Source: Bacteroidota bacterium (GTDB lineage Bacteria; Bacteroidota; Bacteroidia; NS11-12g; UBA955). From it: a stretch of 64,000 nt of DNA. Under the pieces are notes generated by a model, which worked only from the letters and a program-made list of their open reading frames with translations, did no database searches and was not told the origin of the DNA. Numbering within the stretch: the first letter of the stretch is position 1; each line of letters begins with the position of its first letter. The DNA lies in NCBI GenBank assembly GCA_016787485.1, contig JAEUUL010000008.1, positions 124,001 through 188,000 of the forward strand. The letters run 5' to 3'. The position numbers were made by a program, and so were the translations under genes. Of this stretch, positions 2,513 to 63,928 are shown one piece after another.

Positions 2513-2565
2513 CCTATTTTGGCCATATTGTTTCTGAATATGCAATTTCTATTGCACTCAGTCAA

Positions 2566-2573
2566 TATTTTTG
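2566..2573 (+). promoter_or_regulatory. -7 box before the BNR-repeat gene
   Basis: TATTTTTG matches TAnnTTTG exactly and ends 4 nt before the ATG at 2578. No TTG is seen at the expected upstream spacing. Confidence 0.45.
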
Positions 2574-2577
2574 CCGG

Positions 2578-35174: not shown

Positions 35175-35198
35175 TGCCTGTTCAGGCAACTTACTTTG
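35175..35198 (+). promoter_or_regulatory. Short inverted repeat and -7 box before the PKD gene
   Basis: TGCCTG (35175-35180) and CAGGCA (35183-35188) form a 6-bp inverted repeat with a 2-nt centre, directly followed by TTACTTTG (35191-35198), a near-consensus -7 box. The repeat could be an operator or part of a weak murF terminator. Confidence 0.35.
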
Positions 35199-35237
35199 TC
35201 ACAAACCTGTCTCACATTCACCCACCCCTTCCACAAC

Positions 35238-40502: not shown

Positions 40503-40555
40503 CCAAAAGTTTGACTGCACCCGGAATATTCTTCCCTTTTTGCCGTTGTAAAACC

Positions 40556-42199
40556 GTGCATCCCATCCGAACCCTGTTTCTGTGCCTTGCAACCCTTTTC
40601 ACATTTGCTGTGCAGGCTCAGGAACCGGAAGGTAAGGGAAAACTGAAATGGATTACTGAAAGAAACAGTTTTGGTCTGAAAAGCAAACTTCAGGTGCCCA
40701 ACGGCTATTGGGAATATACCAATGATGAGGGCCAGCTTTGCCGCAAAGGCAACTGGAAGGTAAAAAAGAATCAGTCCCTGCGCGAAGGGGAATGGGTTTA
40801 TTACAATACAGAAGGCAACATTTTCTACCGGATAAATTATATAAAAGGATACCCATCGACGTTTGTAATTGAGGATACAGGAGAAAATACCTGCGGGCGG
40901 GAATTTGTAAAAATCCTGGCCCAACCAGACGGATCCTATTATGTATCCAGTTTTTTATATCCATCCATTTCTGGCTTTACCCAAAAAGAGGCCCATGTGC
41001 AGGTGCCATTGCAAAAAGTGTTTGATTATCAAAAGCAATTTGTCAAACTCCGGCCCGGGATGCGGATGGAAATGCCACCCATTCAGGTACCTGGCAGTGG
41101 CCCTGTGGATGCCAATGTTTACAAACCCCGCTATTTTACTGACGCTGAAATTCTTCAGCGGTTTCCTACGGTTGGACAGGCTATGATTCCGGTTCCTGCT
41201 GTGACTGATGAACAAAATCTGGTCATCAATCCGCACTTCGACCAAAATCCGAAACATGTGCGAAGCATGAAACCCGGTGAAATTGCACCCTACTGGGGTT
41301 CTGCCAGTGAAACCCCTGATCTGAATTGGGTAAACGGAAATTCCTGTGGCGGTTTCCGGGTACTGGGGGTGAATTACGAAGTGTTGCGGGGTGAATTGAA
41401 AACCCCTCTTGAGGCTGGCGCAGAATATTGCTTCAGCATGAAACTGCGCATGCGCAAAACCAACCATGTGGCTGTAAACAATCTTGGGGCGCTGTTTTTG
41501 CCTGATGCAAGAGCCGTGCGAGACCCGAACAAGGCATGGAACATGGAGCCCAAAGTGGTCTCTGCCACTCCGGTCTATATTGCCCTGCGGGATACCTGGC
41601 AAACCGTGACCGGCAGAATCACAGCCAAAGGCGGTGAAAAATATGTGTACATAGGCCAGTTTTCCGATGACCGCATGTTCAAGGCCATTCTCATCGACAG
41701 CATGCATTGGTTTGAATGCTATTATCTGGTGGATGATGTAACCCTCACCCCAACAGATACGGCTGATTGTCCCTGCAACAGCACAGACTGCAATGTGCCG
41801 GCAGTTGTGGTGGCAGCCAACAAACCCAAATTGCCCGAAAAACCCAAAGAAGGCGCCCAGCTGGTGTTCCGCAACATACAGTTTGAAACCGGAAGCGCAG
41901 AACTGCTGCCTTCCGCCTACCCTTCGCTGGACAGCCTGCTGCGGCTGCTGAATGTGTACCCCGACCTGCACATCCGGATTGAAGGGCATACCGACAACAT
42001 GGGCGACCCCACCAAAAACCAGACCCTTAGTGAGGAAAGGGCGCGGGTGGTGTATGAATACATTCGCGACCACGGCATCGGGGCTTACCGGCTCAGTCAT
42101 GCCGGATTTGGCGCCAGCCGGCCCGTGGCGGACAACAGCACACCCGGAGGCAGGGCCATCAACCGCAGGGTGGCTTTTGTGGTGGGCAACAACCCCTGA
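40556..42199 (+). CDS. OmpA family protein with MORN-like N-terminal part
   Basis: A 547-residue protein if started at GTG 40556, which gives a compact signal peptide (HPIRTLFLCLATLFTFAVQAQ); an in-frame TTG at 40511 is a weaker choice. Residues about 30-85 resemble MORN/toxin-antitoxin-like repeats (GYWEYTNDEG, GEWVYYNTEGN). The middle (about 215-405) looks like a carbohydrate-binding jelly roll (NLVINPHFD to YYLVDDVTLTP). The last ~110 residues are an OmpA peptidoglycan-binding domain: FETGSAELLPSAYPSLD, RIEGHTDNMGD, LSEERARVVYEYI, GRAINRRVAF. It is likely bound to peptidoglycan in the periplasm. A -7 box (TAACTTTG, 40486-40493) lies inside the end of the previous gene. Confidence 0.85.
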   Translation: MHPIRTLFLCLATLFTFAVQAQEPEGKGKLKWITERNSFGLKSKLQVPNGYWEYTNDEGQLCRKGNWKVKKNQSLREGEWVYYNTEGNIFYRINYIKGYPSTFVIEDTGENTCGREFVKILAQPDGSYYVSSFLYPSISGFTQKEAHVQVPLQKVFDYQKQFVKLRPGMRMEMPPIQVPGSGPVDANVYKPRYFTDAEILQRFPTVGQAMIPVPAVTDEQNLVINPHFDQNPKHVRSMKPGEIAPYWGSASETPDLNWVNGNSCGGFRVLGVNYEVLRGELKTPLEAGAEYCFSMKLRMRKTNHVAVNNLGALFLPDARAVRDPNKAWNMEPKVVSATPVYIALRDTWQTVTGRITAKGGEKYVYIGQFSDDRMFKAILIDSMHWFECYYLVDDVTLTPTDTADCPCNSTDCNVPAVVVAANKPKLPEKPKEGAQLVFRNIQFETGSAELLPSAYPSLDSLLRLLNVYPDLHIRIEGHTDNMGDPTKNQTLSEERARVVYEYIRDHGIGAYRLSHAGFGASRPVADNSTPGGRAINRRVAFVVGNNP

Positions 42200-48864: not shown

Positions 48865-49908
48865 TTACTTACCCCAAAGCAACATACCCAGCCCTGTAAG
48901 CAGCATGTTGATCAGGGCCAGGGGAATGAGGCTTTTCCAGCCCAGGTGCATCAGCTGGTCGTAACGGAAACGGGGCAGTGTCCAGCGGATCCACATGAAC
49001 AGGAAGATGAAGAAGCTCACTTTGGCGAACATCACCGCTACACTGATGGCTCCCAGCCAGTTGGGGTGGGTGCTGAACCAGGCGGCGTCCATGAAGGGGA
49101 AATTGTATCCGCCCAGGTACACAATGCTCATCACTGCGCTGGACACAAACATGTTGATGTATTCCGCAAAGAGGTAAAAGCCCAGCTTCATACTGCTGTA
49201 TTCCGTATGGTAACCACCGATGAGTTCGGTTTCGCACTCCGGCAGGTCAAAAGGTGCACGGTTGGTTTCGGCCAGTGCGCAGGTGAAGAACAGAATGAAG
49301 CCCAGTGGCTGAAAAAGGATGTTCCATTTCATGCCATGCCAGCCGCTTTGCTGGTCTACAATTTCCCGCAGGCTCAGGCTGCCACTCATCATGATGATGG
49401 CAATCAACGCCAGGCCCATGCTCAGTTCATAGCTGATCATCTGCGAACTGGCGCGGATGGCACCGTACAGGGAGTATTTGTTGTTGCTGGCCCAGCCACC
49501 AATCATAATTCCATACACCCCCACACTCACAATGCCCATGATATACAGGATTCCGATATCCACATCGGCAACCTGCAGGCTGATGTTGCGGCCAAACAGA
49601 ACCAGATCTGTACCCCATGGAATTACAGCACTGGTGATACAGGCGGTAACCATGGCGAGTCCCGGCCCCATAATGAACAGCCATTTTTCTGCATTGCGGG
49701 GTATCAGTTCTTCTTTGAAGAACATTTTACCTGCATCGGCCAGGGGTTGAAATATGCCATAAATACCCGCACGGTTAGGCCCCAAACGGTCCTGAAGGAA
49801 GGCGGCCACCTTGCGTTCTCCGTAGGTGAGGTAAGTGGCTATCCCCAGCGTAATGGCGGTGAGGATAAGGATCAGTACACTTTTTTCAAATAACAGGCTC
49901 AGTTCCAT
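48865..49908 (-). CDS. nuoH: NADH-quinone oxidoreductase subunit H
   Basis: A 347-residue membrane subunit of complex I with about eight helices. It contains GERKVAAFLQDRLGPNRAG near the N-terminus, ADAGKMFFKEE, the acidic quinone-channel stretch AETNRAPFDLPECETELIGGYHTEYSSMK, and WTLPRFRYDQLM near the C-terminus. It links the quinone site at the matrix arm to the proton-pumping modules. It follows nuoG by 2 nt. nuoI and the other membrane subunits are not in the window, and nuoH is followed by a 343-bp gap rather than nuoI, so the operon is broken on this side too. Confidence 0.95.
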   Translation of the reverse strand: MELSLLFEKSVLILILTAITLGIATYLTYGERKVAAFLQDRLGPNRAGIYGIFQPLADAGKMFFKEELIPRNAEKWLFIMGPGLAMVTACITSAVIPWGTDLVLFGRNISLQVADVDIGILYIMGIVSVGVYGIMIGGWASNNKYSLYGAIRASSQMISYELSMGLALIAIIMMSGSLSLREIVDQQSGWHGMKWNILFQPLGFILFFTCALAETNRAPFDLPECETELIGGYHTEYSSMKLGFYLFAEYINMFVSSAVMSIVYLGGYNFPFMDAAWFSTHPNWLGAISVAVMFAKVSFFIFLFMWIRWTLPRFRYDQLMHLGWKSLIPLALINMLLTGLGMLLWGK

Positions 49909-49910
49909 GC

Positions 49911-50861
49911 TCAGGCTTTATTCAGTAAGGGGGTATGCTCGGGGATAGGGTCTTCGTATTTGTTGGCAGAGATAACGCTGTGCCTGTCTATGTGGCGGGG
50001 ACCTTCCACAACCCAGTCGCCTTTTTCCTTTTTATGGAAGCGGCAATCGTTGCAAATGAATTCTTTCACTTCTCCAAACTGGTCTTTACGGGCGGTGATG
50101 CGGGCGATTTCATCCCCTATCATCCAGGCTACGGCTTTGCCGCTGCATTTGGGGCAATCGCGGTGCACATCCATGGGCTTGGTATACCATACCCGGCTGC
50201 GGAAACGGAAGGTCTTGTCGGTCAGCGCACCTACAGGACAAACATCAATCACATTACCGATGAATTCATGGTCCAGGTTTTCCTGTATGTAGGTGCTGAT
50301 TTCGGCGGCATCCCCGCGTTTCATCACTCCATGTTCGCGTTTATCGGTTAGCTGGTCTGCGGTATATACGCAGCGGTAACACAAAATGCACCGGGTCATG
50401 TGCAGTTTGATGTATTCGCCAATGTCTATTTTGTCAAATTCGCGGCGTTTGAATTCGTAACGGGTACGCTGCAGACCATGTTCATAAGCCAGGTCCTGCA
50501 GGTGGCATTCACCAGCCTGGTCACAAATGGGACAATCCAGCGGGTGGTTGATGAGGAGAAATTCCACAACCCCGTTGCGGGCATCCACTACCCTTTCGCT
50601 GCTGCGGTTTTTCACTTCCATGCCGTCCATGACAGGGGTGCTGCAGCTGGCCACCAGTTTGGGCATGGGGCGCGGGTCCTTTTCGCTGCCTTTGCTCACC
50701 TCCACCAGGCAGGTGCGGCATTTGCCACCGCTGCCTTTCAGGCTTGAGTAATAGCACATGGCAGGGGGAACTGCGTCTCCGCCTATCATGCGTGCTGCAT
50801 TCAGAATGGTGGTACCATCCGGCACCTCAATGGTGTGTCCGTCAATTGTTACTTTGGCCAT
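49911..50861 (-). CDS. nuoG: NADH-quinone oxidoreductase subunit G, short form
   Basis: A 316-residue iron-sulfur subunit. [2Fe-2S] ligands are in GGKCRTCLVEV and its flanks, the His-Cys3 cluster is HPLDCPICDQAGEC, and a [4Fe-4S] cluster is bound by RCILCYRC with CPVGA. The protein ends soon after CPKCSG and CNDC, so the large molybdopterin-type domain of standard NuoG (~900 residues) is absent; short forms are usual in Bacteroidota. It carries electrons from NuoEF towards the quinone site. It lies 119 nt after the fibronectin-type gene, with its own -7 box, whereas nuoF is 11 kb upstream. Confidence 0.93.
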   Translation of the reverse strand: MAKVTIDGHTIEVPDGTTILNAARMIGGDAVPPAMCYYSSLKGSGGKCRTCLVEVSKGSEKDPRPMPKLVASCSTPVMDGMEVKNRSSERVVDARNGVVEFLLINHPLDCPICDQAGECHLQDLAYEHGLQRTRYEFKRREFDKIDIGEYIKLHMTRCILCYRCVYTADQLTDKREHGVMKRGDAAEISTYIQENLDHEFIGNVIDVCPVGALTDKTFRFRSRVWYTKPMDVHRDCPKCSGKAVAWMIGDEIARITARKDQFGEVKEFICNDCRFHKKEKGDWVVEGPRHIDRHSVISANKYEDPIPEHTPLLNKA

Positions 50862-50907
50862 AATTCACAACGGATTTCAGCAATTGCCTCAAACCGCACA
50901 ACGGGCG

Positions 50908-50915
50908 CAAAAATA
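50908..50915 (-). promoter_or_regulatory. -7 box upstream of nuoG
   Basis: On the minus strand TATTTTTG, an exact match, 46 nt before the nuoG ATG. It lies in the 119-nt gap after the fibronectin-type gene. No TTG at standard spacing. Confidence 0.45.
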
Positions 50916-50980: not shown

Positions 50981-52966
50981 TCAGCGCAGGTGAACCCCCA
51001 CCGGACCTGCTGTTCTGCCCTCTTTACCCCCTTTGAATACAGTGGTAATGTAATAGAAATACTGCTTACCTGCTGCAACCTTTGTGTCTGTCCAGGATTC
51101 CCCATCCGATTCCAATTCTGTTATCTGCGCAGGCTCCTTGCCGGGTTCTGCCCGCAACACCCTTATGGATGACAATGAAACGCCTGCCGGATTGGACCAT
51201 TGCAATTCCACACCTGCGGCAGAGGCAAAGACCTTGAGGTCCGAAACGCCGGCCAATGCCTGCAAGGGGTAGTCATATATCCCTTCCATACCAGCTTTGC
51301 CGGGTTCTCCCTTCATCTGGTCCAGTGCTGACAGACTGTATAAATACTGACTGCCGGCCTGAATTCCACTGTCCAGCCAGGTGTTAATTTCTGCTGGTAC
51401 ACGGCCGATTTCCTTTCTGGCTGAAACTTCATTTCCTTCCGCATCCACCGCACGCCGGTAAACAACGTATCCTGCCACCGCCGGGTTGCCGGCCGACTGA
51501 TCGGCCCAGATCAACTGCACCACCCCGGGTCTGAGTACCCTTACTCCGGGCTGATTGGGTGCTTCCAGGTGCCTGCCGCCCTTGCCATACGCATTCACCC
51601 GGTCGGAGAAGGGCCCCAATGCGTAAGAAGTGTTTTCATCGCGTATAGCATAGCTGTAAACCTGATCGTCATCCGTTTCTGGCAATGTATCCAGTGCAGA
51701 AACCCTGCCTGAATCCGACACCACAATCTGTTTCAGCTTGCGGAGTTCTCCGGTAAATCCGTTTGCGCGGTAGATATGGTAGGCCCGGGTGTCTTTTTCT
51801 GCCCGGTCCCAACTCAGCGAAACCACATTTCCATTTTGTCCGGCCAGCAGATTGTTTACCGGAAACAGATTGGGCTGATTTGCCCTCAGCATACCACTTA
51901 CGCGCACTGAGTTCGGGCTTTGTTCATAAGCTCCGTTCAACTGGACTGTGTAAAAGTAGGTTTCCACAGGTTGCACATCATAGTCCCACCAGGCTGTATC
52001 GCTGGGCGGTAAACTCGCAACCCTGTAGTATTTCCCGTTGTGCACGCGACTGCGGTACACCTCTATCGAAACGATGTCTCGCACCTCCTTAAGAATCCAG
52101 GATACCCGAATGGCATTTTCCTTTTCTTCTGAAGCAGTCATCAGGCGGTCTACTGAGGGTGCAATGCTTTTTTCTTTTCTCGAAAACAAAGACAATTCCG
52201 GAGAGGGATTTCCGGTATTGCCGGCCAGATCCACCGGAACGATGCGGTAAATGTAAGGTACCTTTTCCTGTGCAGTTTTGTCCATAACCGACACCATGAG
52301 TGCCTCATTCTGAGTGTAGAAAATCACGTTGGGCCGGATTTCTTCATACCCGCTGCGCATATAGTAGGCTCTGTATACTTTCACCCTTGCAAGTCCTGCC
52401 CTTTCAGCCACCTTGTAAACAAGTGTAACACCTCCGGCCCCGCCTGTGGCCGATACCGGCACAAATGAGCTGGCGGGTTTATTGCCCGGGAATTCAGCAT
52501 TGAAAGACACAGCAGGAGCAGAAGCATCGCTGCGCACAATCTGATATTTGTACGAAATTCCAGCCGAGGCTTTTGCATCGTACCAGGCCAGACCCACTGA
52601 ATACAAAACCGGTAAATTTTCCATGAAGAACAAGAGTGAATCGTTGCGTCCTGCCCGGCATTCTTTAAACAGAAAGCGGGCTTCACGGTCGGTAATGCTT
52701 TCACTGAAACCAATGTTTAACCCCATGATTTCGAAAATTCTGCCCTGAAGTTCTTCCTGAGAGGCAGGAATCTTTACCCGGCCCACTTCTTCGGTTTCAC
52801 GTACATTGTCTGCTTCGCTGCGCAGTATTTTGTATTCAAATCCGCGGGGCAAGTCTTTGCCCAGCGTAATCCATATTCCTTTGGGCCCGGCTATGGCTTT
52901 TACCGTTTGTGCGTGTGCACTCGCCCAACTGCCTATCAGGAGCAGTAATCCCGTTACAATTCTCAT
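50981..52966 (-). CDS. Secreted fibronectin type III repeat protein
   Basis: A 661-residue protein with a signal peptide (RIVTGLLLLIGSWASAHAQ). The rest is a chain of fibronectin type III-like domains, seen in repeated strand pairs such as GVTLVYKVAE and ARVKVYRAYY, IRVSWILKEVRDIVSIEVYR, VVSLSWDRAEKDTRAYHIYR, VQLIWADQ and VAGYVVYRRA, and VELQWSNPAG. There is no T9SS sorting domain or lipobox, so its final location is periplasm, outer membrane or exported by an unknown route. The ATG at 52966 overlaps the stop of the 2422-residue gene in ATGA, indicating tight coupling. It is the last gene of the cassette inside the nuo operon. Confidence 0.8.
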   Translation of the reverse strand: MRIVTGLLLLIGSWASAHAQTVKAIAGPKGIWITLGKDLPRGFEYKILRSEADNVRETEEVGRVKIPASQEELQGRIFEIMGLNIGFSESITDREARFLFKECRAGRNDSLLFFMENLPVLYSVGLAWYDAKASAGISYKYQIVRSDASAPAVSFNAEFPGNKPASSFVPVSATGGAGGVTLVYKVAERAGLARVKVYRAYYMRSGYEEIRPNVIFYTQNEALMVSVMDKTAQEKVPYIYRIVPVDLAGNTGNPSPELSLFSRKEKSIAPSVDRLMTASEEKENAIRVSWILKEVRDIVSIEVYRSRVHNGKYYRVASLPPSDTAWWDYDVQPVETYFYTVQLNGAYEQSPNSVRVSGMLRANQPNLFPVNNLLAGQNGNVVSLSWDRAEKDTRAYHIYRANGFTGELRKLKQIVVSDSGRVSALDTLPETDDDQVYSYAIRDENTSYALGPFSDRVNAYGKGGRHLEAPNQPGVRVLRPGVVQLIWADQSAGNPAVAGYVVYRRAVDAEGNEVSARKEIGRVPAEINTWLDSGIQAGSQYLYSLSALDQMKGEPGKAGMEGIYDYPLQALAGVSDLKVFASAAGVELQWSNPAGVSLSSIRVLRAEPGKEPAQITELESDGESWTDTKVAAGKQYFYYITTVFKGGKEGRTAGPVGVHLR

Positions 52967-55900
52967 TTCACACATCCTTTCTGTGTACCTGCTTTGCCCA
53001 GGCTGAAATCAAAATAGGTACCACCGGAACCGGTACCGAAGTCGAGACTTGCGCCCTGGGTTTCGCTGTAACAAATCTCATCCAGAACCAAACTCTGGCA
53101 AACTTTATAACCGCAGGAGAAATTGCCATGCGCATCGAAATTCATCCCGTTTTTATAAGAAATGCGGGCGGTAATATCCGCATCGGCATAGCCGGAAATG
53201 GAAGTACCGGTGATGGCACTCATACCGGCTTTTACATGTCCAAAAGCACCCACATTCACTTCATAACTGCCTTTGGCCAGATTTGCACCCAGACTGGCTT
53301 CCAGCGTTGCATCGGCATGCAGGTAGGCAGAAGCCACCACGGCATAAAAATCATAATGCTCATTGATAAACTGATTGCTGCCACAGAACCAGAATCCCTT
53401 GAAGTCGTCCTTGTTCTCATTCAGCCAGCAGGCATTGGCGGGATTTACGGCATAGGTTGTGGCCTTGGTTATCAGTTCCGGGGTGAGCTTGTACCCTCCC
53501 AACACAAAGCCTACCTTAAACAGACCGTATCCTTCCTTAAACAGGGTTCCTGTATTGGCCTGAGCCAGACCTACAACAAGAAAGCCTCCGGGGTCCACAT
53601 AACATTCTACCTGTCCGGACATTTGCCAGGCACCTATCTGCGTCCATTCTTTGATAACCAGATTGCCGTACAGTTGTTTTTTGGCAAAATCATAGCTGAA
53701 ACTCATTTGCCCGAATGGGGTATTGATTTCATTCATCTGCACACCGCTGCTGTTGGCGGTAATTTCTCCATGCACCGCAAAATCCATTTCGGGCGGTGTT
53801 TTTATGGTACCGGAACCGTCGTAGTATTTACCTCCGAATTTGAGCAGATTCCAGTCGTTATTTCCCTCCACCTTCATGCCATTGCGGGTATCGTCGTTGG
53901 CCAGTACCAGCTTGGGTCCGCTGCTGCCTACCAGATAATGGTTGTATGAAGCGGGCAAATAAATCTGTCCGGGCTTGCCGGTGCCAAACACCAGTGTGCA
54001 GGGAATGGGGTTGAATTTGCCCGGTTCTACCACACTTCCCTTCAGTGTCATCAAGCCGGTGGTTGTATTCACGATGGGCGAAGTATCTGCGGTTTTATAC
54101 ACCACATAGCCGGGTGCTTCAAAACTCATTTTCAGGGGTTCTACCTCTGCTTTCAATGTGCCGCCGGGCTTTACAAAGCGTATGGCCATGCTGGTAGTGG
54201 GTACCCTGGGCACTGCAATATCTGCATCGCCTATCAGTTTAAAGAAGTTGCCGCCACTTACAATTTGCTTGGGTATATAAGACAACTTGTCGTTGCCAAA
54301 CATGTTCTTCAATGCCCCCATATTGGCCATGGACAATATATTTTCGTTGCCATAACTGATGAGCTGAATATACTCAAGGGGCAAATCCTGCTTGATAAAC
54401 GGACTGAGTCCTGTGATCACAGCTGCCGGCAAATTCCCGTTTTTGGCAATGACAAAACGCCAGTGCTTGCCCATGTCGCTGCCGCAGCTTTCGTCAAATA
54501 CCAGTTTGGCATTGGGTGAGATCTGACTCAGGTTGAGAACCCCGCCACCCAGGGTGAGTTTACTCAGGTCGAAATTATCCAGAAAGAAGAAATCATTGCG
54601 CAGGTTGAATTTATAAGCCGGTATATCCACCACTCCGGTTTTGATCAGACAATTGGATGAAATCAATCCCCCTTCTTTGGGGTCTACACTCCAGTCTTTC
54701 ACCTCCAGTTTCCAGGATTGCAAATCCAGCACCATGGGCTCGGTGCCTGTGGCTTTTTCTATTTTGTTGTTATTCAGCACCAGATCCGGTACTTTAAATT
54801 TCACTTTATCCAGTTTCTGGCTGGGAGATTTTCCCTCTACCAATACATCCAGATGAATTTTTCCATCGTCTGAGATGAAGGAATTGGCAGGATTGGCAGT
54901 GGCCGTAAATCCGATAAAGGCAAAAACCAGCCCGCTGCCATTCTGCTGAGACAGGAAGTATTTGGCAGGAATGCTGCCCCCTTTACTCACAATTACATCC
55001 ACTTTGGTGGTATAGCCCCCACCCTGGGGAACCGCGAAGTAAAAGGTACCTGTCTTGTCAAAATTGATGTAGGTGGAGGGGAAATTGAAAGAGTTATCTG
55101 CGATATGGGCATGGGCATTCAGCCTGCCGTAAGCGCCGGACTTTTCAATCACCAGATTCTGTGGTTTTTTAGTTTTCCCTCCGTCCCATGCAGGTTCCAC
55201 ATCTACATTGTACCGTTCCATGTATTTCATTTTCAGCACAGCCGTGGCATCCAGCTGGGTGCTGTTCTGCTCCGGATTGGCCATACCTCCGGCAATTTTA
55301 TAGGGCACATCCACCACACGCACTTTGGTATTCGGGTCAAGCCAGCCAAATCGTGTAGCCCCTTTGGATAAGTCCACCATACCCGTAACCAGATAGGAGC
55401 CCTTCTCTTTTCTGATATTCTCTACACTCAGCGGGAAACCATACAGATTGTCTACCTTGCCTTCAGCAAATTTTTTCAGTTCCAGTACAATTTCCGGCAT
55501 ACTGCTGCCGGTTGTTACTTCTTTCATGTCTCCTGTAACCGTGAAACTGGTATCCATGGTAGCATACACTTTCAGTTTCTGTCCCACTTTGGGAATACCA
55601 TGTATGGTGAATGAACCGTTGGCAGCGGTTCTTGCCTCCATCTCAGAAAAGGCAGTGGTGCTGTTTGTCTGAATTATTCCACCGGATTTGTAATCAACAT
55701 ACACTCTTGCATTCTTTATGGGTGTACCGTCCAGCGTAACCTTACCCGAAATTTCATAACCGCGTTTTACAGTAACAGTATAGTCTACCCAATCCCGGGT
55801 TTCCTCATTGCTCAATTCCAGTTTCACGGGTATAAAGTTCCCGTCTTTATTATCCTCCACCAGCAAACTATATTGGGTGGAACTCACATTCTCAAAAGGT

Positions 55901-58900
55901 GGAATAAGGATGGTTGTAGCCGATACCGAATTCACACCTGATTTTACCGATTCATTGTTCAGTGTGGCTTTGATTGTGTTTTTTGGATAACCCGCTGCTG
56001 GCATTGGCAATACAGAACCATCCGCAGTGCGGAACTTCAGATTGAGTCTTATGCGATGCTTGCGGCGGATGACCACGATTTTTCCCAGATTTTTTCCTGA
56101 GCCGGAAACGTAAACCGTAAATGTGGTATCGAAATATCCCACGTCTTTGGGAATAATTTTAAGTTTATGTACCGTACTGCTCGTAGCCGGCACTGTAAAA
56201 TCACCACCGGTTTTGGTTTCAGTAAAATATCCGGAAGGTGTTTTTTTGTATGATGTTTTCACTACATTCTCAAACACCGTACTGTCATCCCGCATGATGT
56301 ATGCTTCTACTGGTACCCCGGCTTCATCCACAATCACACCGGTCACTTTTCCGCCCGGATCGAGAGCAGTTGCATAAAAATATTGTGAACCTTCTGCATT
56401 GAGAGTAAAAGATGGAATTACTTTGCCTTTATATCCATAACTGCTGGCTATAAAAAACATTTTTGCATTGTCTTTCCAGGTAAAATAGTTCCATCCTGCT
56501 GCAAACCGGTGATTGATGATTTCCCAATAACCGGATGAATCCAGTGTCAGAACTTTCTTTACCTCTTCATCGTTCAGATATACATTTACATACCCAGTTT
56601 TTATGCCCTTTCCGCTGCTGTTGTCCATCAACCTTCCGGCCACCCGGCTCGGAGTTAATGTCACACCGGTTGCATCGGTTTCATAGGGAATAATAACAGG
56701 TTGGAAGCTATTTCCCGGGTTTTGGGGGTCGGGGCAAATCTGAATAAAATATCTTCCAACGTAATCTGGTTTCAGAATTTTCTTACCACCCAATTTAATA
56801 TAATTGAAATTTCCCTCGTAATACATGGGCAGGGTTTCTTCCAGTATCCATTCCACTTCGGTATTTTTCCAGTCCAGCCCCTTGGAGGTATTATCGTCTA
56901 CAGTAAAATTGTTATTGAAAGAAGGACGCAACAATTTCTTTTTCGGGTGATTCGGACTTCCCTCCCCTTCAGGTTTGTACTGGGTTTTGGTACCAATCAC
57001 ACGAAAGACAACCACTTTTGCATTGGCCAGTCCTATCTTTAAATCTTTGTTCCCTTTTGGGTCTGAAGACATCACTTTTACTTTGATCTTTTTGTCATCC
57101 AGATTTTTTATTTCGCTGACCCATGCAGTGAATGTACCCAGATCCTTTTTATCAAAAGCCTGTACAACAAAATCATTGGAGATGGCACTGCCCGCGCTGG
57201 AAGGATTTGTGATGGAACCATAATATTTTGCCCATGCCGGGCTGAGTGCCAGGGAAAATACCCGCTTCAACGTATGGTTCTCACCTGTCTCATCTGTGAA
57301 AGCAATTTCATCCGGGGAAGCATCCGGACCAAAGGATTTTCCTGCACCTATATCTTTATTCATTCCTCCTCCCATTCCGCCGGCCATTCCTTTGTCCAGC
57401 GCGTTTCCAAATCCCGCGGCACCGGCCATTTTACCCGCCATATCCGATGCATTGAGCCCATCATTACTGAAATCCAGGGTATTCTCATTTTGTCCGAATT
57501 TATTCATCTGGTTGCCCCACATGTCATCCATTTTCCACTTCATTTTATCCATGGGATTTTCATCGGCCGGCTTTGTTTTATCACATGACGGGTCTTTGAT
57601 GGACTGGGTAACCACTTCTGCATTGGAAGAAATTTCTCCTTTGGTATTGTGGTTAATGATATTGAGTGAGAAAAATCCCTGTGCATCGGTATACCCTGTA
57701 CCCACGGTCAATTTATTATCGGCATCTTCCAGCATATTGTCCCAACCGTTTTTGTCTCCCATTTTCACGCTGGTCAATATCATTTTACAAGCTTCTTTTT
57801 GCAATTTCTGTGGCAAAGGATACCCATCCAGCAAGTACGTCATGTACACATAAAACTGGGCATTGGCCAGCGGGCGAATGGTATTGGGATCGGTGGGCCA
57901 GGCGTAAACCAAACGGCCACTTACGGCAGACATGGGAGGCAACTGTGATATAAGTTTGTACTCCATCTGATGCTGATAATGCACCGATTTTTTATTGAAT
58001 TTTCCCAACGGAAAAACAACTTCCATTTCTGCAGCAACCAGGTCTTCATCTTCCTCATCCCCTTGAGTAATTTCAGCATCTTCCACTTCCGGATCCGGCA
58101 GTGCAGGACCATACCATTTTGGCTCTTTATAACCACCTGCAGGTTTGTATCCGCCGGCAGGATTGCTGTTGTAAACACCAAAGGGTGATTTATAACCAGA
58201 CTTTGACTTGTCCGGCAAAATGGCTTTCACATAATACACATCATCCGCAGCATGATTTACCAGTAAATCGCTGAAAGCAACAACTGTTCTGTCTTTTCCA
58301 TCCGGACCTTTTTCATAAAATGTTTTGGCTTCAGCCACCAGCAATTCCGCCGGTTTTAATCCTTGTTTCACCAGCTTACCGGCTTCAAAAAACGGAATAA
58401 AATCCGCTTTGTTTTTGCGGTATAACCGAAATGTAATTCCGGATTTTACCTTTGATTTGCTGTTGATGGTAAGGGTATCCACAGCAAATGATTTGGTGCT
58501 CCAGCTCTTGGTGGCAGAATCGATAAAATAGGACGGAAATCCTTTTCCCACAACAAGTTTCAAATCATAGCTGTATACCGTTAATACAATTTCTCCCAGG
58601 TTTAACGTATCCCGCTGTCCGTAATTCAGTATCTTTCCACCCGGACCCGGTTTCTGGTAGCTCAGATTGATAACTATATTGTTTTGTAAATCCTGATAAT
58701 ACGGATTTTTTAATTTGATTTTCAGAAACTTTTTTGCTGTATCTGATGCAGACAATGCCAGTCTTCCACTGAATTTCCCATCAGCCCCGGTTTTGAGTGT
58801 TGTAAAATCCTTGGTGGCATTCATATCGGAGAACTGCCCTTCGACAATCTGAGCCTGAAAAATGGAATTGTTGGCCGGATTTTTCTCTGTTCCGTTGCTG

Positions 58901-60231
58901 AATTTGTAAACCAGATTCCCTGTAAGAACCATGGAAGGTTTCTCGCTGGTCTTTATCAACTGCAATACCACCGGGCAACTGGTTACGCTGCCCAAAGTTC
59001 CGCCACTGCTGTCAAATGCGGTTACCTCAATTCTGAATCTGCCGGTGAATAAATCCAGATCTTTTGCAGCCTGTAAACCAAGGTCAAAATATTGTTTACT
59101 TACCCTGAACGTGTTTTTTAACTTGGTGGATATTTTTCCGCCTTTTGCAGTTGCCAGTTCATCGGTTTTAAACCGCACTTCATATTCTTTCACCCCTTTG
59201 CCATTGATACGCAATTTGGAAGGGTTTTTCAGTGTTGATGTATCACTCAACTGCGATTGCCAAAGCCAGCTCATCGCAGCATCCTGATCTGCAGAAATCT
59301 TTAATGTATCCGTAGATTTTTTACAAAGTGGCCTGCTAAACTGAAGATTATCCGTTCCTGCCGCACCACCCGTTTCGGGCAATGCAGAAGTCCATATAAA
59401 ACTGCAGGCGGCACTCATACCATTGTTGCGGAATACGGTTTTCTTATCAGGGTCATAAGCCGTAACCCTCCAGGCATACGTCTTGCCCGGTGTAAGTTTT
59501 GGGTCCGACAGTTTGTACAGATATGTAAAAATGGACAATTCTGTCTCGAAAAACGGCGGAGTGGTAAGTGTATTCATGGCATCATTCGGATCCTGCGCCG
59601 GATTGATTAATTCTGCCATACTGAGTACATATTTTGTTGTGATGGGCGCACCCGGGGCCGGACTCCAGTTAAAAACGACCGTTTGTGCAGGGTTGATCCA
59701 TACCTTGCTGCCGCAGGCCGGCGATATCAATACAGGCGGCTCTACATTCTTAATCTGAATCACCGCGCATGCTTCTGCACCCGCCGGCTGATCCGTGTTC
59801 CAGTTCATGGGTGTCAGACACACCTTGTAATTCCCTTCGGGCAGACCATTGTTCTGTATGAGCTGCTGTGAAGTAATACCGGTAAGGGTAGTATTTGCCC
59901 ATGTAAAATATTCACTGATGTCATTGCCCTTGATTACGGTTACCGTAGATACCAATTCAAGGGGTACTCCGGGTTTGTAATTCCCTTTTGTACTCAGACT
60001 CACCCCGTTGTCGCCGGTGATGGAGCCTTTAAAATACACCTTGTCTATGCCGGCGGCACCCGTTTTAATCACCGAAATCACAACCTTATTTTCATAGCTG
60101 AGGTAATCAGAGAAATAAGGTGAATAAGGCGGTTGCAATACCAGATTTACCGTTACCTGTGCTTGCACACAGGGTGCAAACAACAAGAGAAAGGGCAAAG
60201 TCCATTTGGTATATCGCTGCAAATTCTTCAT
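52963..60231 (-). CDS. 2422-residue multidomain secreted protein, possible TANFOR-type N-terminus
   Basis: A giant protein with a Sec signal peptide (cleavage near CVQAQ, residue 25). Residues about 25-165 form an all-beta domain beginning VTVNLVLQPPYSPYFSDYLS, which may be the TANFOR domain (tentative). About 170-290 is fibronectin-like (VFNWSPAPGAP). Further on are several carboxypeptidase-regulatory-like domains (VAGRLMDNSSGKG, VTGVIVDEAGVPVEA, YEISGKVTLDGTPIKNARVY). A Gly/Met/Asn/Ala-rich linker lies near residues 920-975. The C-terminal ~230 residues are Gly-rich alternating strands with cysteines (CGYKVC, EICYSE, GCVK end). No T9SS signal is present. It sits between an outer-membrane barrel (11 nt upstream) and the fibronectin protein. 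Function unknown. Confidence 0.82.
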   Translation of the reverse strand: MKNLQRYTKWTLPFLLLFAPCVQAQVTVNLVLQPPYSPYFSDYLSYENKVVISVIKTGAAGIDKVYFKGSITGDNGVSLSTKGNYKPGVPLELVSTVTVIKGNDISEYFTWANTTLTGITSQQLIQNNGLPEGNYKVCLTPMNWNTDQPAGAEACAVIQIKNVEPPVLISPACGSKVWINPAQTVVFNWSPAPGAPITTKYVLSMAELINPAQDPNDAMNTLTTPPFFETELSIFTYLYKLSDPKLTPGKTYAWRVTAYDPDKKTVFRNNGMSAACSFIWTSALPETGGAAGTDNLQFSRPLCKKSTDTLKISADQDAAMSWLWQSQLSDTSTLKNPSKLRINGKGVKEYEVRFKTDELATAKGGKISTKLKNTFRVSKQYFDLGLQAAKDLDLFTGRFRIEVTAFDSSGGTLGSVTSCPVVLQLIKTSEKPSMVLTGNLVYKFSNGTEKNPANNSIFQAQIVEGQFSDMNATKDFTTLKTGADGKFSGRLALSASDTAKKFLKIKLKNPYYQDLQNNIVINLSYQKPGPGGKILNYGQRDTLNLGEIVLTVYSYDLKLVVGKGFPSYFIDSATKSWSTKSFAVDTLTINSKSKVKSGITFRLYRKNKADFIPFFEAGKLVKQGLKPAELLVAEAKTFYEKGPDGKDRTVVAFSDLLVNHAADDVYYVKAILPDKSKSGYKSPFGVYNSNPAGGYKPAGGYKEPKWYGPALPDPEVEDAEITQGDEEDEDLVAAEMEVVFPLGKFNKKSVHYQHQMEYKLISQLPPMSAVSGRLVYAWPTDPNTIRPLANAQFYVYMTYLLDGYPLPQKLQKEACKMILTSVKMGDKNGWDNMLEDADNKLTVGTGYTDAQGFFSLNIINHNTKGEISSNAEVVTQSIKDPSCDKTKPADENPMDKMKWKMDDMWGNQMNKFGQNENTLDFSNDGLNASDMAGKMAGAAGFGNALDKGMAGGMGGGMNKDIGAGKSFGPDASPDEIAFTDETGENHTLKRVFSLALSPAWAKYYGSITNPSSAGSAISNDFVVQAFDKKDLGTFTAWVSEIKNLDDKKIKVKVMSSDPKGNKDLKIGLANAKVVVFRVIGTKTQYKPEGEGSPNHPKKKLLRPSFNNNFTVDDNTSKGLDWKNTEVEWILEETLPMYYEGNFNYIKLGGKKILKPDYVGRYFIQICPDPQNPGNSFQPVIIPYETDATGVTLTPSRVAGRLMDNSSGKGIKTGYVNVYLNDEEVKKVLTLDSSGYWEIINHRFAAGWNYFTWKDNAKMFFIASSYGYKGKVIPSFTLNAEGSQYFYATALDPGGKVTGVIVDEAGVPVEAYIMRDDSTVFENVVKTSYKKTPSGYFTETKTGGDFTVPATSSTVHKLKIIPKDVGYFDTTFTVYVSGSGKNLGKIVVIRRKHRIRLNLKFRTADGSVLPMPAAGYPKNTIKATLNNESVKSGVNSVSATTILIPPFENVSSTQYSLLVEDNKDGNFIPVKLELSNEETRDWVDYTVTVKRGYEISGKVTLDGTPIKNARVYVDYKSGGIIQTNSTTAFSEMEARTAANGSFTIHGIPKVGQKLKVYATMDTSFTVTGDMKEVTTGSSMPEIVLELKKFAEGKVDNLYGFPLSVENIRKEKGSYLVTGMVDLSKGATRFGWLDPNTKVRVVDVPYKIAGGMANPEQNSTQLDATAVLKMKYMERYNVDVEPAWDGGKTKKPQNLVIEKSGAYGRLNAHAHIADNSFNFPSTYINFDKTGTFYFAVPQGGGYTTKVDVIVSKGGSIPAKYFLSQQNGSGLVFAFIGFTATANPANSFISDDGKIHLDVLVEGKSPSQKLDKVKFKVPDLVLNNNKIEKATGTEPMVLDLQSWKLEVKDWSVDPKEGGLISSNCLIKTGVVDIPAYKFNLRNDFFFLDNFDLSKLTLGGGVLNLSQISPNAKLVFDESCGSDMGKHWRFVIAKNGNLPAAVITGLSPFIKQDLPLEYIQLISYGNENILSMANMGALKNMFGNDKLSYIPKQIVSGGNFFKLIGDADIAVPRVPTTSMAIRFVKPGGTLKAEVEPLKMSFEAPGYVVYKTADTSPIVNTTTGLMTLKGSVVEPGKFNPIPCTLVFGTGKPGQIYLPASYNHYLVGSSGPKLVLANDDTRNGMKVEGNNDWNLLKFGGKYYDGSGTIKTPPEMDFAVHGEITANSSGVQMNEINTPFGQMSFSYDFAKKQLYGNLVIKEWTQIGAWQMSGQVECYVDPGGFLVVGLAQANTGTLFKEGYGLFKVGFVLGGYKLTPELITKATTYAVNPANACWLNENKDDFKGFWFCGSNQFINEHYDFYAVVASAYLHADATLEASLGANLAKGSYEVNVGAFGHVKAGMSAITGTSISGYADADITARISYKNGMNFDAHGNFSCGYKVCQSLVLDEICYSETQGASLDFGTGSGGTYFDFSLGKAGTQKGCVK

Positions 60232-60242
60232 GGTTTTGTTTA

Positions 60243-61958
60243 TTAAAATATATGATTGAATCCGATGGTGGCCAGGTATTCCTGAAAGGTCTTGGACAGC
60301 ACACCGGTTTTACTGTTGTTGTTCGTGAATGTGAGGTTTGCACTCAATACATTTTTCCTGGTTATTTTCCAGGTGGTATTCCAGCGTGATTGCAGGGTGT
60401 TGCCATCTTTGCTGCCGTTAAATTCGTTCATACTATAGGTGACTGACAAATACGTATTCACGGTATTTTTTCTGTATCCCCTTCCCAAACCCATCGTAGC
60501 ACCGTTGTTCGTTCCATTGCCCGCAGTCAGTTTGCTCTTTACAGTAAATACAGAAATATCCGCTTTGAACCCATTGGTATTGTTGTTCAAACTATAACTG
60601 ATGCTGTGGTTGATCACAGTCATACTAAAATTCTGGCTGTTGATTTTGTTTTTATCATTCAGGGTTTGATTCAGAAAATTGTAGAGAAATGCGTGGTTGA
60701 ATTGTTTGCCCAGAATCATGTAATACGGAGACAAAATGATGCTGTTATTTACCTGATTGAGAATAACTGTGTCGCTGATGGATTTGGAACCGGGACGCTG
60801 TGTGGTTCCGTAATTGCTGTAGGTAGCCGTAATACCCGCGTTGCTTACAGGGCGATAACTGATGGTGGCACTGCCAATGGTGCGACGGGTTTGTGCCAGT
60901 TTTTTCTTTGCCAGGTTATCATGTTCGGTACCTATACTGGCATTTAAAAACAGATTTCCTTTTTTCGTATAATACTGCGGGGCAAGGGTTAATCGCTGCA
61001 CATCGGTTTGAAAATAATAACTGCCAAAACTCCGGTAATCCGGCATAAGCCGCTGAAACTTGAGAGAGGTACTGAAGCGCTGCAGCTGATAAGTGAGAGA
61101 AGCATCGCCGGCATAATACACCTGAGTGCTGAGGTGCGGGACCAGTATAAACCGGGCAAGTTTGTAGTATTTATTTTCCAGTTCCAGGGTATCGGCCCGG
61201 AGATCACGGGTAAGTACACTCATGGCAGCGTCGCTTTCCAGTGTAAAATGTTTCAGAAAACGGAATCGGGTTTTATAGCCCAATGTGGCATTTTCGCCTG
61301 GTGTGGTCTGTTGAATTCCTGGATTTTCCTTCACGCTGGCCATCTCGTCTTTGGCATGAAAATAAATCACATCCACAAATCCGGCATCGGTGCCATACCC
61401 CAGCTTAAATCCATAACCAAAGCGGTTATAAGCAGCAACAGGATATTGCGAAACTTTTGTATAAACCTGCTGTGCACTGTCTTCCTGTACTGCCTTTAAA
61501 AACCGTCCATACATGGCTCCAAACCTGATTTTTTTTGGATTCAATTCCACTGCGGCACCCAGAAAAACGTGATTGTTCAGTGTATAATTGGACCAGGAAA
61601 GATTGCGCCAGCCCAGGTGTAGTTTCAGCCATTTATAGGTGGGAGATAAACCAAACTGATTGAAAGGCTGGCGAAAATCCCGCTGTTGTTCGCTGTACTG
61701 AAATGAAAAAGGGAGTGCCACTCCTTTCAGAAACAGGGTTGCGTTTCCGTAGGCCGACCATTGAAAGGGAACCCTTCTGGGGGCAATGCCTTCCGCATGG
61801 TACAAATTGGCCATGGCACCAATGTTTCCTGTGGCGCGCACCCACTTTTCCTGCCGGATATTTTCAACATCCTGTGCAAATAACTGAGCAGGAATACTGC
61901 ATCCCGCAACAACGTATAAGCACCAATACCTCAGATTACGGAATACAGATATCTGCAC
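60243..61958 (-). CDS. Outer-membrane beta-barrel protein, 571 residues, function unknown
   Basis: It starts at GTG 61958 and has a signal peptide ending near AQLFAQ (about residue 29). A short N-terminal segment is followed by a chain of amphipathic strands separated by polar turns (FQWSAYGNATLFLKG, KWLKLHLGWRNLSWS, NATLGYKTRFRFL, NTYLSVTYSMNEFNG), ending in TIGFNHIF with a C-terminal phenylalanine. I estimate 22-26 strands, large enough for a pore. There is no plug or TonB box. It is first in the three-gene cassette and has a promoter just before its start. It may anchor or export the 2422-residue protein encoded next, but that is inference from position only. Confidence 0.78.
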   Translation of the reverse strand: MQISVFRNLRYWCLYVVAGCSIPAQLFAQDVENIRQEKWVRATGNIGAMANLYHAEGIAPRRVPFQWSAYGNATLFLKGVALPFSFQYSEQQRDFRQPFNQFGLSPTYKWLKLHLGWRNLSWSNYTLNNHVFLGAAVELNPKKIRFGAMYGRFLKAVQEDSAQQVYTKVSQYPVAAYNRFGYGFKLGYGTDAGFVDVIYFHAKDEMASVKENPGIQQTTPGENATLGYKTRFRFLKHFTLESDAAMSVLTRDLRADTLELENKYYKLARFILVPHLSTQVYYAGDASLTYQLQRFSTSLKFQRLMPDYRSFGSYYFQTDVQRLTLAPQYYTKKGNLFLNASIGTEHDNLAKKKLAQTRRTIGSATISYRPVSNAGITATYSNYGTTQRPGSKSISDTVILNQVNNSIILSPYYMILGKQFNHAFLYNFLNQTLNDKNKINSQNFSMTVINHSISYSLNNNTNGFKADISVFTVKSKLTAGNGTNNGATMGLGRGYRKNTVNTYLSVTYSMNEFNGSKDGNTLQSRWNTTWKITRKNVLSANLTFTNNNSKTGVLSKTFQEYLATIGFNHIF

Positions 61959-61962
61959 AAAA

Positions 61963-61993
61963 CAAAGTTGCAGAAAAAAGACCGCAGTTCCAA
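61963..61993 (-). promoter_or_regulatory. Promoter of the three-gene cassette
   Basis: On the minus strand TTG at 61993-61991, 20-nt spacer, then CAACTTTG at 61970-61963 (one mismatch). The GTG start at 61958 follows after 4 nt. Confidence 0.55.
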
Positions 61994-62018: not shown

Positions 62019-62047
62019 TTATATGGATTCTAATTGAATCCATATAA
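62019..62047. repeat. 12-bp perfect inverted repeat after nuoF
   Basis: TTATATGGATTC (62019-62030) and GAATCCATATAA (62036-62047) with loop TAATT. It lies 19 nt after the nuoF stop and before the cassette promoter. The stem is AT-rich and followed on the minus strand by a mixed AT stretch, not a clean T-tract, so it may be a weak terminator, an mRNA-end stabiliser or a protein site. Confidence 0.6.
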
Positions 62048-62066: not shown

Positions 62067-63419
62067 TTAAACAGAAGCCGGAGCAAATACTTTCTCTGCA
62101 ACCAGGCCATAATTCCGCTGCATGCAGGCCTGTGGCTCATTTACATGCCATTCGAATTCCTCGCGGAAATGACGTATTGCGGCAGCTACCGGCCAGGCTG
62201 CGGCATCTCCCAGCGGACAAATGGTATTGCCTTCGATTTTGCGCTGAATATCCCAGAGTAAATCTATGTCTTCCATTTTTCCATGACCGTATTCCAGGCG
62301 GTGCAATACTTTTTCCATCCAGCCTGTGCCTTCGCGGCAGGGACTGCATTGACCACAACTTTCATGGTGATAAAAGCGGGTAAAATTCCATGTATTGCGC
62401 ACAATACACTGGTCCTCATCGTACACAATAAACCCGCCACTGCCCAGCATACTACCAGTGGCAAATCCACCGTCGGCAAGGCTTTCGTAACTCATCAGCC
62501 GGTCTTCGCCTGCTGCAGTTTTTGTAACCAGAAAATGCGGCAAAATGGGAACAGATGATCCACCGGGCACACAGGCTTTCAGGCGTTTGCCATTTTTCAT
62601 GCCTCCGCACCATTCTTCACTGTTTAAAAATTCGTCTACAGAAATTCCCAGTTCAATTTCATAAACTCCCGGTTTCCGGATATTTCCGCTGGCCGAAATC
62701 AGTTTTGTTCCGGTGCTTTTGCCAATTCCGATTTTAGCATATTCATCTCCTCCATCGTTCACAATGGGTACAACCGCGGCAATGGTCTCCACATTGTTTA
62801 CCACAGTAGGACAGCCCCACAAACCCTTTACAGCCGGGAAAGGCGGCTTAATACGCGGATTGCCCCGTTTGCCCTCCAGACTTTCAATAAGGGCGGTTTC
62901 TTCTCCGCAGATATATGCGCCTGCACCAGGGCTTACTGCCAAATCCAGATTGTAACCGCTGCCCAGTATGTTTTTGCCGAGCCAGCCGTTAGCGTATGCT
63001 TCTGCAATGGCTTTCTCCAGGATGCGCAATACATACATATATTCGCCACGGATATAGATATAACTCTGATTTGCCCCCAATGCGAAGGAAGAAGTAATCA
63101 TACCCTCGATAAGCAAATGGGGAATTTTTTCCATGAGATAGCGGTCTTTGAAAGTACCTGGTTCACTCTCATCTGCATTGCACAGAAGGTAACGGGGCAC
63201 ACCCTCAGGTTTTGCCAGAAAACTCCACTTCATGCCGGTAGGAAATCCGGCTCCGCCACGGCCGCGCAAACCTGATTTTTTTACTTCTTCCACCACCTCA
63301 TCCGGGGTCATGGTTTTCAAGGCTTTCTCTACAGACCTGTAACCACCGTTTTTGCGATAGACGTCGTAGGATGCAATTCCTTCAATATTTGCGTGCTCAA
63401 GCAGAAGTTTTCTTCCCAT
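62067..63419 (-). CDS. nuoF: NADH-quinone oxidoreductase subunit F
   Basis: A 450-residue NADH-oxidising subunit of complex I. The NADH/FMN region has GLRGRGGAGFPTGMKW and the FMN stretch RYLLCNADESEPGTFKDR. The N3 [4Fe-4S] cluster is bound by SCGQCSPCREG plus the later cysteine in TICPLGDAAAWP. All catalytic residues are present. It starts 5 nt after the small gene upstream, continuing the nuoE transcript. It is followed by an inverted repeat and the 11-kb cassette before nuoG resumes, which is an unusual gap for subunits of one complex. Confidence 0.95.
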   Translation of the reverse strand: MGRKLLLEHANIEGIASYDVYRKNGGYRSVEKALKTMTPDEVVEEVKKSGLRGRGGAGFPTGMKWSFLAKPEGVPRYLLCNADESEPGTFKDRYLMEKIPHLLIEGMITSSFALGANQSYIYIRGEYMYVLRILEKAIAEAYANGWLGKNILGSGYNLDLAVSPGAGAYICGEETALIESLEGKRGNPRIKPPFPAVKGLWGCPTVVNNVETIAAVVPIVNDGGDEYAKIGIGKSTGTKLISASGNIRKPGVYEIELGISVDEFLNSEEWCGGMKNGKRLKACVPGGSSVPILPHFLVTKTAAGEDRLMSYESLADGGFATGSMLGSGGFIVYDEDQCIVRNTWNFTRFYHHESCGQCSPCREGTGWMEKVLHRLEYGHGKMEDIDLLWDIQRKIEGNTICPLGDAAAWPVAAAIRHFREEFEWHVNEPQACMQRNYGLVAEKVFAPASV

Positions 63420-63424
63420 TTTTA

Positions 63425-63928
63425 TTACTTCAAAAATCCAAAACTTATTTCGTGTATTCCATCGGTACGAATATCAAAGGATAACACAGTTCCTGTTTCC
63501 CGGTTGATATACCGCATACCGTTTTCGCCGAACAATTTCAAATTCGGACTGTTATAGAGTGCTTTTTTTATATCCTCTTTGGTGCTTCCTGCACCCAGTG
63601 AAGTGCCATTCAACAGCAGCGTGCCGCTGAACGAGTTTCGGGTCATAAATGCAGTATCGGATTGAAACGCCAGACGATATGCCATTTTACCGCCTGTTGC
63701 CTGTTCGGCCATAATTCCCAGGCTATCATAATAATACCGCTGCACCGAACCCATGTCTTTGTTCCTGTTGAATGCGCCAAACACAACTTTCAGCCCTTCA
63801 GTACTTTTCACAGCACTCACATCGGTTCCGTTGACAGCAATGGTGTGCTGCATTGTAGACACCACAAAGGCAGGCCCTTTTGCAGGTGGCGCAGTGAACA
63901 TCGATATGGCAAGGCCCATCCAGAACAT
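63425..63928 (-). CDS. Small exported protein between nuoE and nuoF
   Basis: A 167-residue protein. The first ~18 residues (MFWMGLAISMFTAPPAKG) may be a short signal peptide or membrane segment. The rest has two related halves of about 65-70 residues: the first with IAVNGTDVS, then YYYDSLGIMA, then KMAYRLAFQ; the second with LLLNGTSLGAGS, then MRYINRETGTVLSFDI, then IHEISFGF. This suggests an internal duplication of a small beta domain. It overlaps the nuoE stop by one base (TAATG) and precedes nuoF by 5 nt, so it is translated with complex I subunits. I do not know a complex I accessory subunit of this kind. Confidence 0.7.
   Translation of the reverse strand: MFWMGLAISMFTAPPAKGPAFVVSTMQHTIAVNGTDVSAVKSTEGLKVVFGAFNRNKDMGSVQRYYYDSLGIMAEQATGGKMAYRLAFQSDTAFMTRNSFSGTLLLNGTSLGAGSTKEDIKKALYNSPNLKLFGENGMRYINRETGTVLSFDIRTDGIHEISFGFLK

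Follow-up and report, generated by a model that had tools for sequence, protein, structure and literature searches.

Why would three envelope genes lie inside a complex I operon? The window considered here, the whole 64,000-nucleotide stretch that was analysed (G000:C29:124001-188000 of a 3.4-Mb Bacteroidota genome), carries such a cassette on its minus strand between nuoF and nuoG. It is made up of an open reading frame (ORF) for a predicted outer-membrane β-barrel of 571 aa (60243-61958, GTG start), an ORF for a giant protein of 2422 aa (52963-60231), and a gene for a protein with fibronectin type III (FnIII) repeats and a signal peptide (50981-52966), which is 661 aa long from its MRIV... 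start and 664 aa long from an upstream ATG at 52975. An initial annotation of the window had described these genes and their common strand, with which the ORFs agree, as well as an 11-nt gap between barrel and giant and a 4-bp ATGA overlap between the giant and FnIII genes, both confirmed from the coordinates. All three proteins begin with Sec-like signal peptides, as read by eye, and no C-terminal domain of the type IX secretion system (T9SS) was found in any of them, again as annotated. Judging from sequence comparison and structural models, we see an even chance that the cassette is a dedicated outer-membrane unit that delivers or displays the giant, with the barrel recognising a TANFOR-like module. 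The direct support comes from the conserved gene set, module-wise co-variation, the predicted fold, and toxin-type relatives; localisation, recognition, transport, and surface function are what we infer.

A gene trio that recurs across the Bacteroidota

The annotation had seen in the cassette a self-contained envelope system. This view is strongly supported by the recurrence of the gene trio across Bacteroidota lineages, with three further cassettes in the same genome bringing the total to four. Two of these, on contigs C16 and C14, keep the order found in the window, and the third, on C22, runs giant-FnIII-barrel. A profile of three barrels has matches in 21 of 108 genomes of the order. With 59 barrels, the profile reaches 113 of 395 sampled genomes of the phylum; its weakest matches, to ORFs of ~800 aa, may belong to a different family.

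The gene order was examined in named genomes, using the best 80 of 244 relatives fetched by barrel similarity alone. These loci come from Pedobacter, Mucilaginibacter, Spirosoma, Dyadobacter, Larkinella, Runella, Emticicia, Siphonobacter, and Filimonas, from Saprospiraceae and Bacteroidales bins, and from a few bins labelled Chlorobiota, Ignavibacteria, or Armatimonadetes. The giant is the next gene after the barrel in 77 of the 80, at a median gap of 1 nt, and all 77 giants match the profile of the N-terminal module; the remaining three loci are cut by a contig end or fragmented. An FnIII gene follows within two genes at 69 of the 70 complete, and thus testable, giants. In the same loci, ORFs of at least 1300 aa account for 3 of 411 flanking ORFs (0.7%), and against this background the three-gene order exceeds chance. 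Neighbouring species are not independent, so the 77 loci do not represent 77 separate events, and several orders are represented among them. More distant samples repeat this picture with greater variation. At order level, 13 of 24 loci have the giant directly downstream of the barrel and 4 have it upstream; at phylum level, the figures are 12 of 18 and 3. The remaining loci are cut short, split, or without a giant.

Several variants accompany this set. In operons of the C22 type (L057, L058, L060, L061), FnIII and barrel are separated by a fourth gene of ~710 aa; the end of its product resembles, by eye, a T9SS type A sorting domain. Contig C34 of this genome encodes a solitary TANFOR-like giant of 1894 aa with no barrel beside it (L015:10509-17898); its C-terminus is unique and two small genes lie downstream, making it a possible polymorphic toxin. 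A wider set of ~800-aa proteins, as at L170:8380-10785, weakly matches the barrel profile and may represent a sister barrel family, next to which lies a 754-aa protein.

Two modules in the giant

Pairwise similarity was compared across 51 non-redundant loci for the barrel, giant residues 1-380, the giant from residue 450, and the FnIII protein. The barrel follows the N-terminus of the giant (rho 0.73, permutation maximum 0.35), and the remainder of the giant follows the FnIII protein (rho 0.61, permutation maximum 0.09). The four cross-combinations give rho values of 0.01-0.12, and partial correlations leave both strong pairings unchanged. For segments sliding along the giant, the correlation with the barrel is 0.71 at residues 0-200, 0.65 at 100-300, 0.58 at 200-400, and 0.14 at 300-500; from this last segment on, the giant tracks the FnIII protein instead (0.32-0.48). 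The conserved N-terminal module ends at a median residue of 296. The giant has two modules that switch sharply near residue 300. In the window, the first corresponds to positions 59332-60231 (minus strand), an address-like stretch of ~300 residues that co-varies with the barrel, and the FnIII protein co-varies with what lies past it.

The layout of the window giant comprises a signal peptide, a TANFOR-like module at about residues 25-160, an Fn3-like stretch, carboxypeptidase-regulatory/CNA-B-like domains, and a C-terminal region. TANFOR proteins were described in 2020 by Jana, Salomon, and Bosis as polymorphic toxins, with TANFOR as the delivery domain (PMC7073777). The module of the window giant lies N-terminally, after the Sec signal seen by eye. 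The C-terminal 1100 residues are β-rich and common to some 24 giants of other genera. Their structural model (predicted local distance difference test, pLDDT, 81) contains transthyretin-like and CNA-B-like domains, the former matching 5aq0 with Z 12.1 and a root-mean-square deviation (rmsd) of 1.1 over 77 residues; at its end, very long strands recall a section of a porin barrel. Template-modelling (TM) scores to LptD, porins, and ApoB are low for this moderate model, and no fold was assigned beyond the transthyretin-like and CNA-B-like domains.

No toxin or enzyme domain was found in the window giant. Given this, its conserved C-terminus, and an FnIII gene rather than an immunity gene downstream, we reject the idea that it is itself a polymorphic toxin; its C-terminal part is probably structural or adhesive. 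None of 96 giant C-termini and none of 45 FnIII proteins carries a T9SS sorting domain. For the FnIII protein, no family match is informative, the weak ones being to proteins with FnIII-like repeats.

A predicted large barrel without a plug

Beyond three single weak matches, no Pfam or NCBIfam model covers the barrel in 59 family members. An AlphaFold model built from 59 sequences (pLDDT 86.8, predicted TM score 0.75) shows about 24-26 long strands starting at residue 40. It has neither a plug nor a POTRA or periplasmic domain, and the chain ends in a conserved Phe. The closest structural match is MtrB (6r2q_B; Z 18.8, 441 aligned residues, rmsd 7.0), with OprD-type porins tied to it within 1 Z unit and ushers among the better Foldseek matches. 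These predicted similarities support a large outer-membrane barrel in size and fold class, with no bearing on function. Longer barrels of ~818 aa, about 250 aa more than that of the window, are found in loci with TANFOR-type giants (L155:9895-12351, L151:3544-6000, L152:14197-16653); in L151 and L152, a large nearby gene ends, by eye, like a T9SS substrate.

Toxin-type relatives

In four loci (L048, L049, L051, L155), the gene directly after a barrel of the same family encodes a TANFOR-type giant (1766-1957 aa), with no FnIII gene seen downstream. In L049 and L051, the giants share 57% identity across residues 10-1606, beyond which their tips differ. Two orphan pieces of 70 aa, which share 65% and 59% identity with the L051 tip, follow the L049 giant, along with immunity-type genes that share 51% identity with the one after the L051 giant; together they form an array of immunity-type genes and orphan toxin tips (L049:12912-14929). 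In L153, the TANFOR giant ends in a colicin/pyocin-type DNase domain (E 5e-42) and is adjoined by a small gene and a barrel fragment. As read from the sequences, this layout is that of polymorphic toxins with orphan tip-immunity pairs, the barrel standing where CdiB sits in contact-dependent inhibition (CDI). For the other tips, a toxin role is suggested by organisation only.

Proposed mechanism and alternatives

The mechanism that we propose can be divided into three steps. First: the three proteins would enter the periplasm through Sec, as their signal peptides suggest. Second: the large unplugged barrel would take its place in the outer membrane, a location indicated by the fold and the C-terminal Phe. 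Since an open pore of 24-26 strands would leak, the giant or the FnIII protein presumably fills it. Third: the barrel would recognise the first ~300 residues of the giant as a TANFOR-like address and either export the giant or hold it at the surface. The barrel and the N-terminal module would form a transport pair; past residue 300, the giant would be payload, served by a partner of its own in the FnIII protein. Some relatives may instead carry a polymorphic toxin as payload, with an immunity gene replacing FnIII. The annotation had suggested that the barrel anchors or exports the giant, which fits the co-variation of the barrel with the giant N-terminus, and transport is the part that remains inferred. 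Taken broadly, the trio is a widespread kit of many Bacteroidota, unlabelled until now, whose probable task is to bring large proteins, at times toxins, to the cell surface or to keep them there. We tentatively extend this to a barrel family acting as the translocon or anchor of an unnamed outer-membrane secretion route of Bacteroidota and neighbours, with an N-terminal TANFOR address that selects the barrel, interchangeable payloads, and no T9SS C-terminal signal. Under this extension, equally tentative, a payload would be either a structural giant, paired with an FnIII protein, or a toxin, paired with its immunity protein.

Some observations weigh against a barrel that recognises a TANFOR address and carries the giant out. 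The match of the window giant to TIGR02542 (TANFOR) scores 28.3 bits, aligned over positions 3-144 of 145, and lies below the curated cut-off of 67, a value reached in none of the 395 genomes; the module is called TANFOR-like because of this score. No TANFOR match is recognisable in the C22- and C14-type giants of this genome. The middle segments of the giant in the co-variation analysis rest on weak similarity. Two further points, the co-occurrence with SprA and the adjacency of the co-varying genes, belong to the alternatives that they favour.

In the first of these, the giant would cross the outer membrane via SprA, and the barrel would only collect or anchor it, as PorP/SprF does for type B substrates of the T9SS. 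SprA is present in 113 of 113 barrel-positive genomes, and the barrel occurs in none of the 91 SprA-negative genomes (hypergeometric 3e-16), so that the giant might leave via the T9SS. More than 95% of TANFOR genomes carry a T9SS (PMC7073777), and PorP/SprF genes likewise pair with giant-adhesin genes (PMC9143113, PMC12618676). However, the SprA-negative genomes listed belong mostly to one family (f20), which confounds the association by phylogeny. The giants also lack the sorting domain at their C-termini and are conserved at the N-terminus, and the barrel falls outside the PorP family, with 24-26 predicted strands in place of 14. We place this explanation on the unlikely side.

A second alternative, compatible with any transport model, is that the co-variation reflects only physical linkage and recombination within the giant gene, so that neither barrel and N-terminal module nor FnIII protein and payload would be functionally paired. 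Since the parts that co-vary also adjoin each other on the DNA, linkage could account for part of the signal, and we keep this rival alive. Linkage would let the signal decay with distance, but it switches within ~1 kb at the end of the N-terminal module, and sequence 5-7 kb away from the FnIII gene already follows FnIII. We regard linkage alone as an unlikely cause.

A third possibility is that the giant is not exported at all and acts as a periplasmic structural protein, with barrel and FnIII protein forming an envelope scaffold or uptake pore. The similar fold scores for OprD-type porins and MtrB would suit such a role, as would a giant devoid of toxin and enzyme domains. Against it, the same barrel family also precedes giants with toxin tips and immunity genes, a layout that implies delivery out of the cell; we hold this arrangement to be quite improbable.

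The insertion in the complex I operon

The placement of the cassette among nuo genes is an incidental insertion between two genes. On the minus strand, the order is nuoA to nuoE, a 167-aa gene, nuoF (62067-63419; TIGR01959, 600 bits), barrel, giant, FnIII, nuoG (49911-50861; TIGR01973, 286 bits), and nuoH (48865-49908). In 29 readable relatives of the same family, the comparison that the annotation had called for, nuoF and nuoG are adjacent in 28, 25-57 nt apart. The lone exception, L182 (relative G062), has a different, unrelated gene at the junction (2549-3358, minus strand), which encodes 269 aa, is methyltransferase-like by eye, and is an independent insertion at the same place. None of the 124 loci found elsewhere by barrel searches has nuo genes near the cassette, and the flanks of the nearest orthologous cassette (L070, barrel identity 53%) are without a nuo gene. 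The notion that the cassette serves complex I or is co-regulated with it, prompted by the shared strand and the nuoF-nuoG location, is contradicted by the 29 relatives, by the lack of barrel cassettes near nuo elsewhere, and by the location of nuoL, nuoM, and nuoN of this genome on another contig, and is almost certainly wrong.

The 167-aa gene between nuoE and nuoF (63425-63928, minus strand) is a second small insertion in the operon, since nuoE and nuoF are adjacent in most relatives read. NuoG is 316 aa long and matches only the first 260 of 606 model positions, a short form common to relatives.

Two of the three further elements that had been annotated are real. A perfect inverted repeat, ATATGGATTC-N5-GAATCCATAT (62021-62045), lies between nuoF and the barrel, has a 12-bp stem (z -3.3), occurs nowhere else in the window, and is not followed by a T run. 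A perfect Bacteroidota-type -7 box, TATTTTTG (50908-50915, minus strand), precedes nuoG, and the motif is rare in the window (0.022 per 100 nt per strand). The third, a promoter of the cassette's own, was not found: the stretch upstream of the barrel holds no TAnnTTTG and a sigma-70 consensus scan gave no excess above shuffles. An 11-bp direct repeat, GAATTATGGCC, flanks the cassette at 62105-62115 (end of nuoF) and 50856-50866 (start of nuoG), a match with a chance of ~1.5% by our estimate. The ends have no direct or inverted repeat beyond it, and a transposon origin is rejected. Elsewhere in the window, a PKD-repeat giant with a CHU_C type T9SS domain (35196-42199, plus strand) is directly followed by an OmpA-domain protein.

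Relation to described systems and significance

The annotation had recognised no described system here, which is correct in part: the TANFOR domain had already been described, and no description of a barrel partner was found. In the parts of that description that were read, TANFOR toxins are hypothetical T9SS substrates with Fn3 genes enriched nearby, and a barrel partner is not mentioned (PMC7073777). A domain-based neighbourhood test would miss the barrel, because it has no domain model. Searches of the open-access literature yielded nothing more on this system and no barrel partner for TANFOR/TIGR02542 or polymorphic toxins. Like TANFOR polymorphic toxins, the cassette has a giant Sec-exported protein, an N-terminal module of this kind, and an Fn3 gene nearby, and some relatives share the swappable tips and immunity genes. 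It differs in that most barrel-linked giants, including that of the window, show no toxin domain, and in the sub-threshold match of the window giant.

Two-partner secretion and CDI (type Vb, CdiB-CdiA-CdiI) likewise place a barrel gene beside a giant gene whose N-terminus follows the barrel, with tip and immunity cassettes, orphans included, as in the relatives. The cassette barrel, however, lacks POTRA domains, has 24-26 predicted strands against 16 in the TpsB/FhaC type, and shows no sequence match; the giant has TANFOR in place of the TPS domain, and an FnIII gene is added as third. Membership of TpsB is rejected, as no such Pfam match occurs in the 59 members and the barrel begins at residue 40. 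The type B T9SS pathway with PorP/SprF, and a PorE-like protein, is also of Bacteroidota and combines a giant, a dedicated barrel, and an accessory protein in one operon. With 14 strands, the PorP/SprF barrels that anchor type B substrates (PMC9143113, PMC12618676) are smaller than the cassette barrel, which is also without a PorP-family match; its giants lack a C-terminal sorting domain, their recognition part being apparently N-terminal. TIGR03519 (PorP) finds four genes in this genome, none of them a cassette barrel, and matches none of the 59 family members; with no type B C-terminal domain in the 96 giants, this membership is rejected as well. MtrB of the Mtr complex and the chaperone-usher proteins FimD/PapC are similarly large outer-membrane barrels but have no sequence relation to the cassette barrel; for MtrB, membership is rejected, the cassette having no cytochrome gene and the barrel no Pfam match. 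By analogy, the cassette would work like two-partner secretion or the PorP/SprF pairing, yet the tests made place it in neither family.

For the exit of TANFOR toxins from the cell, the 2020 paper could only hypothesise the T9SS (PMC7073777). As a dedicated neighbour of the giant, free of any family model and carried by roughly one in four sampled Bacteroidota genomes, the barrel is a concrete candidate for the outer-membrane partner still missing from the picture, and deletion of single genes could test this. The cassette also suggests what many unexplained giants with FnIII neighbours belong to in such genomes.

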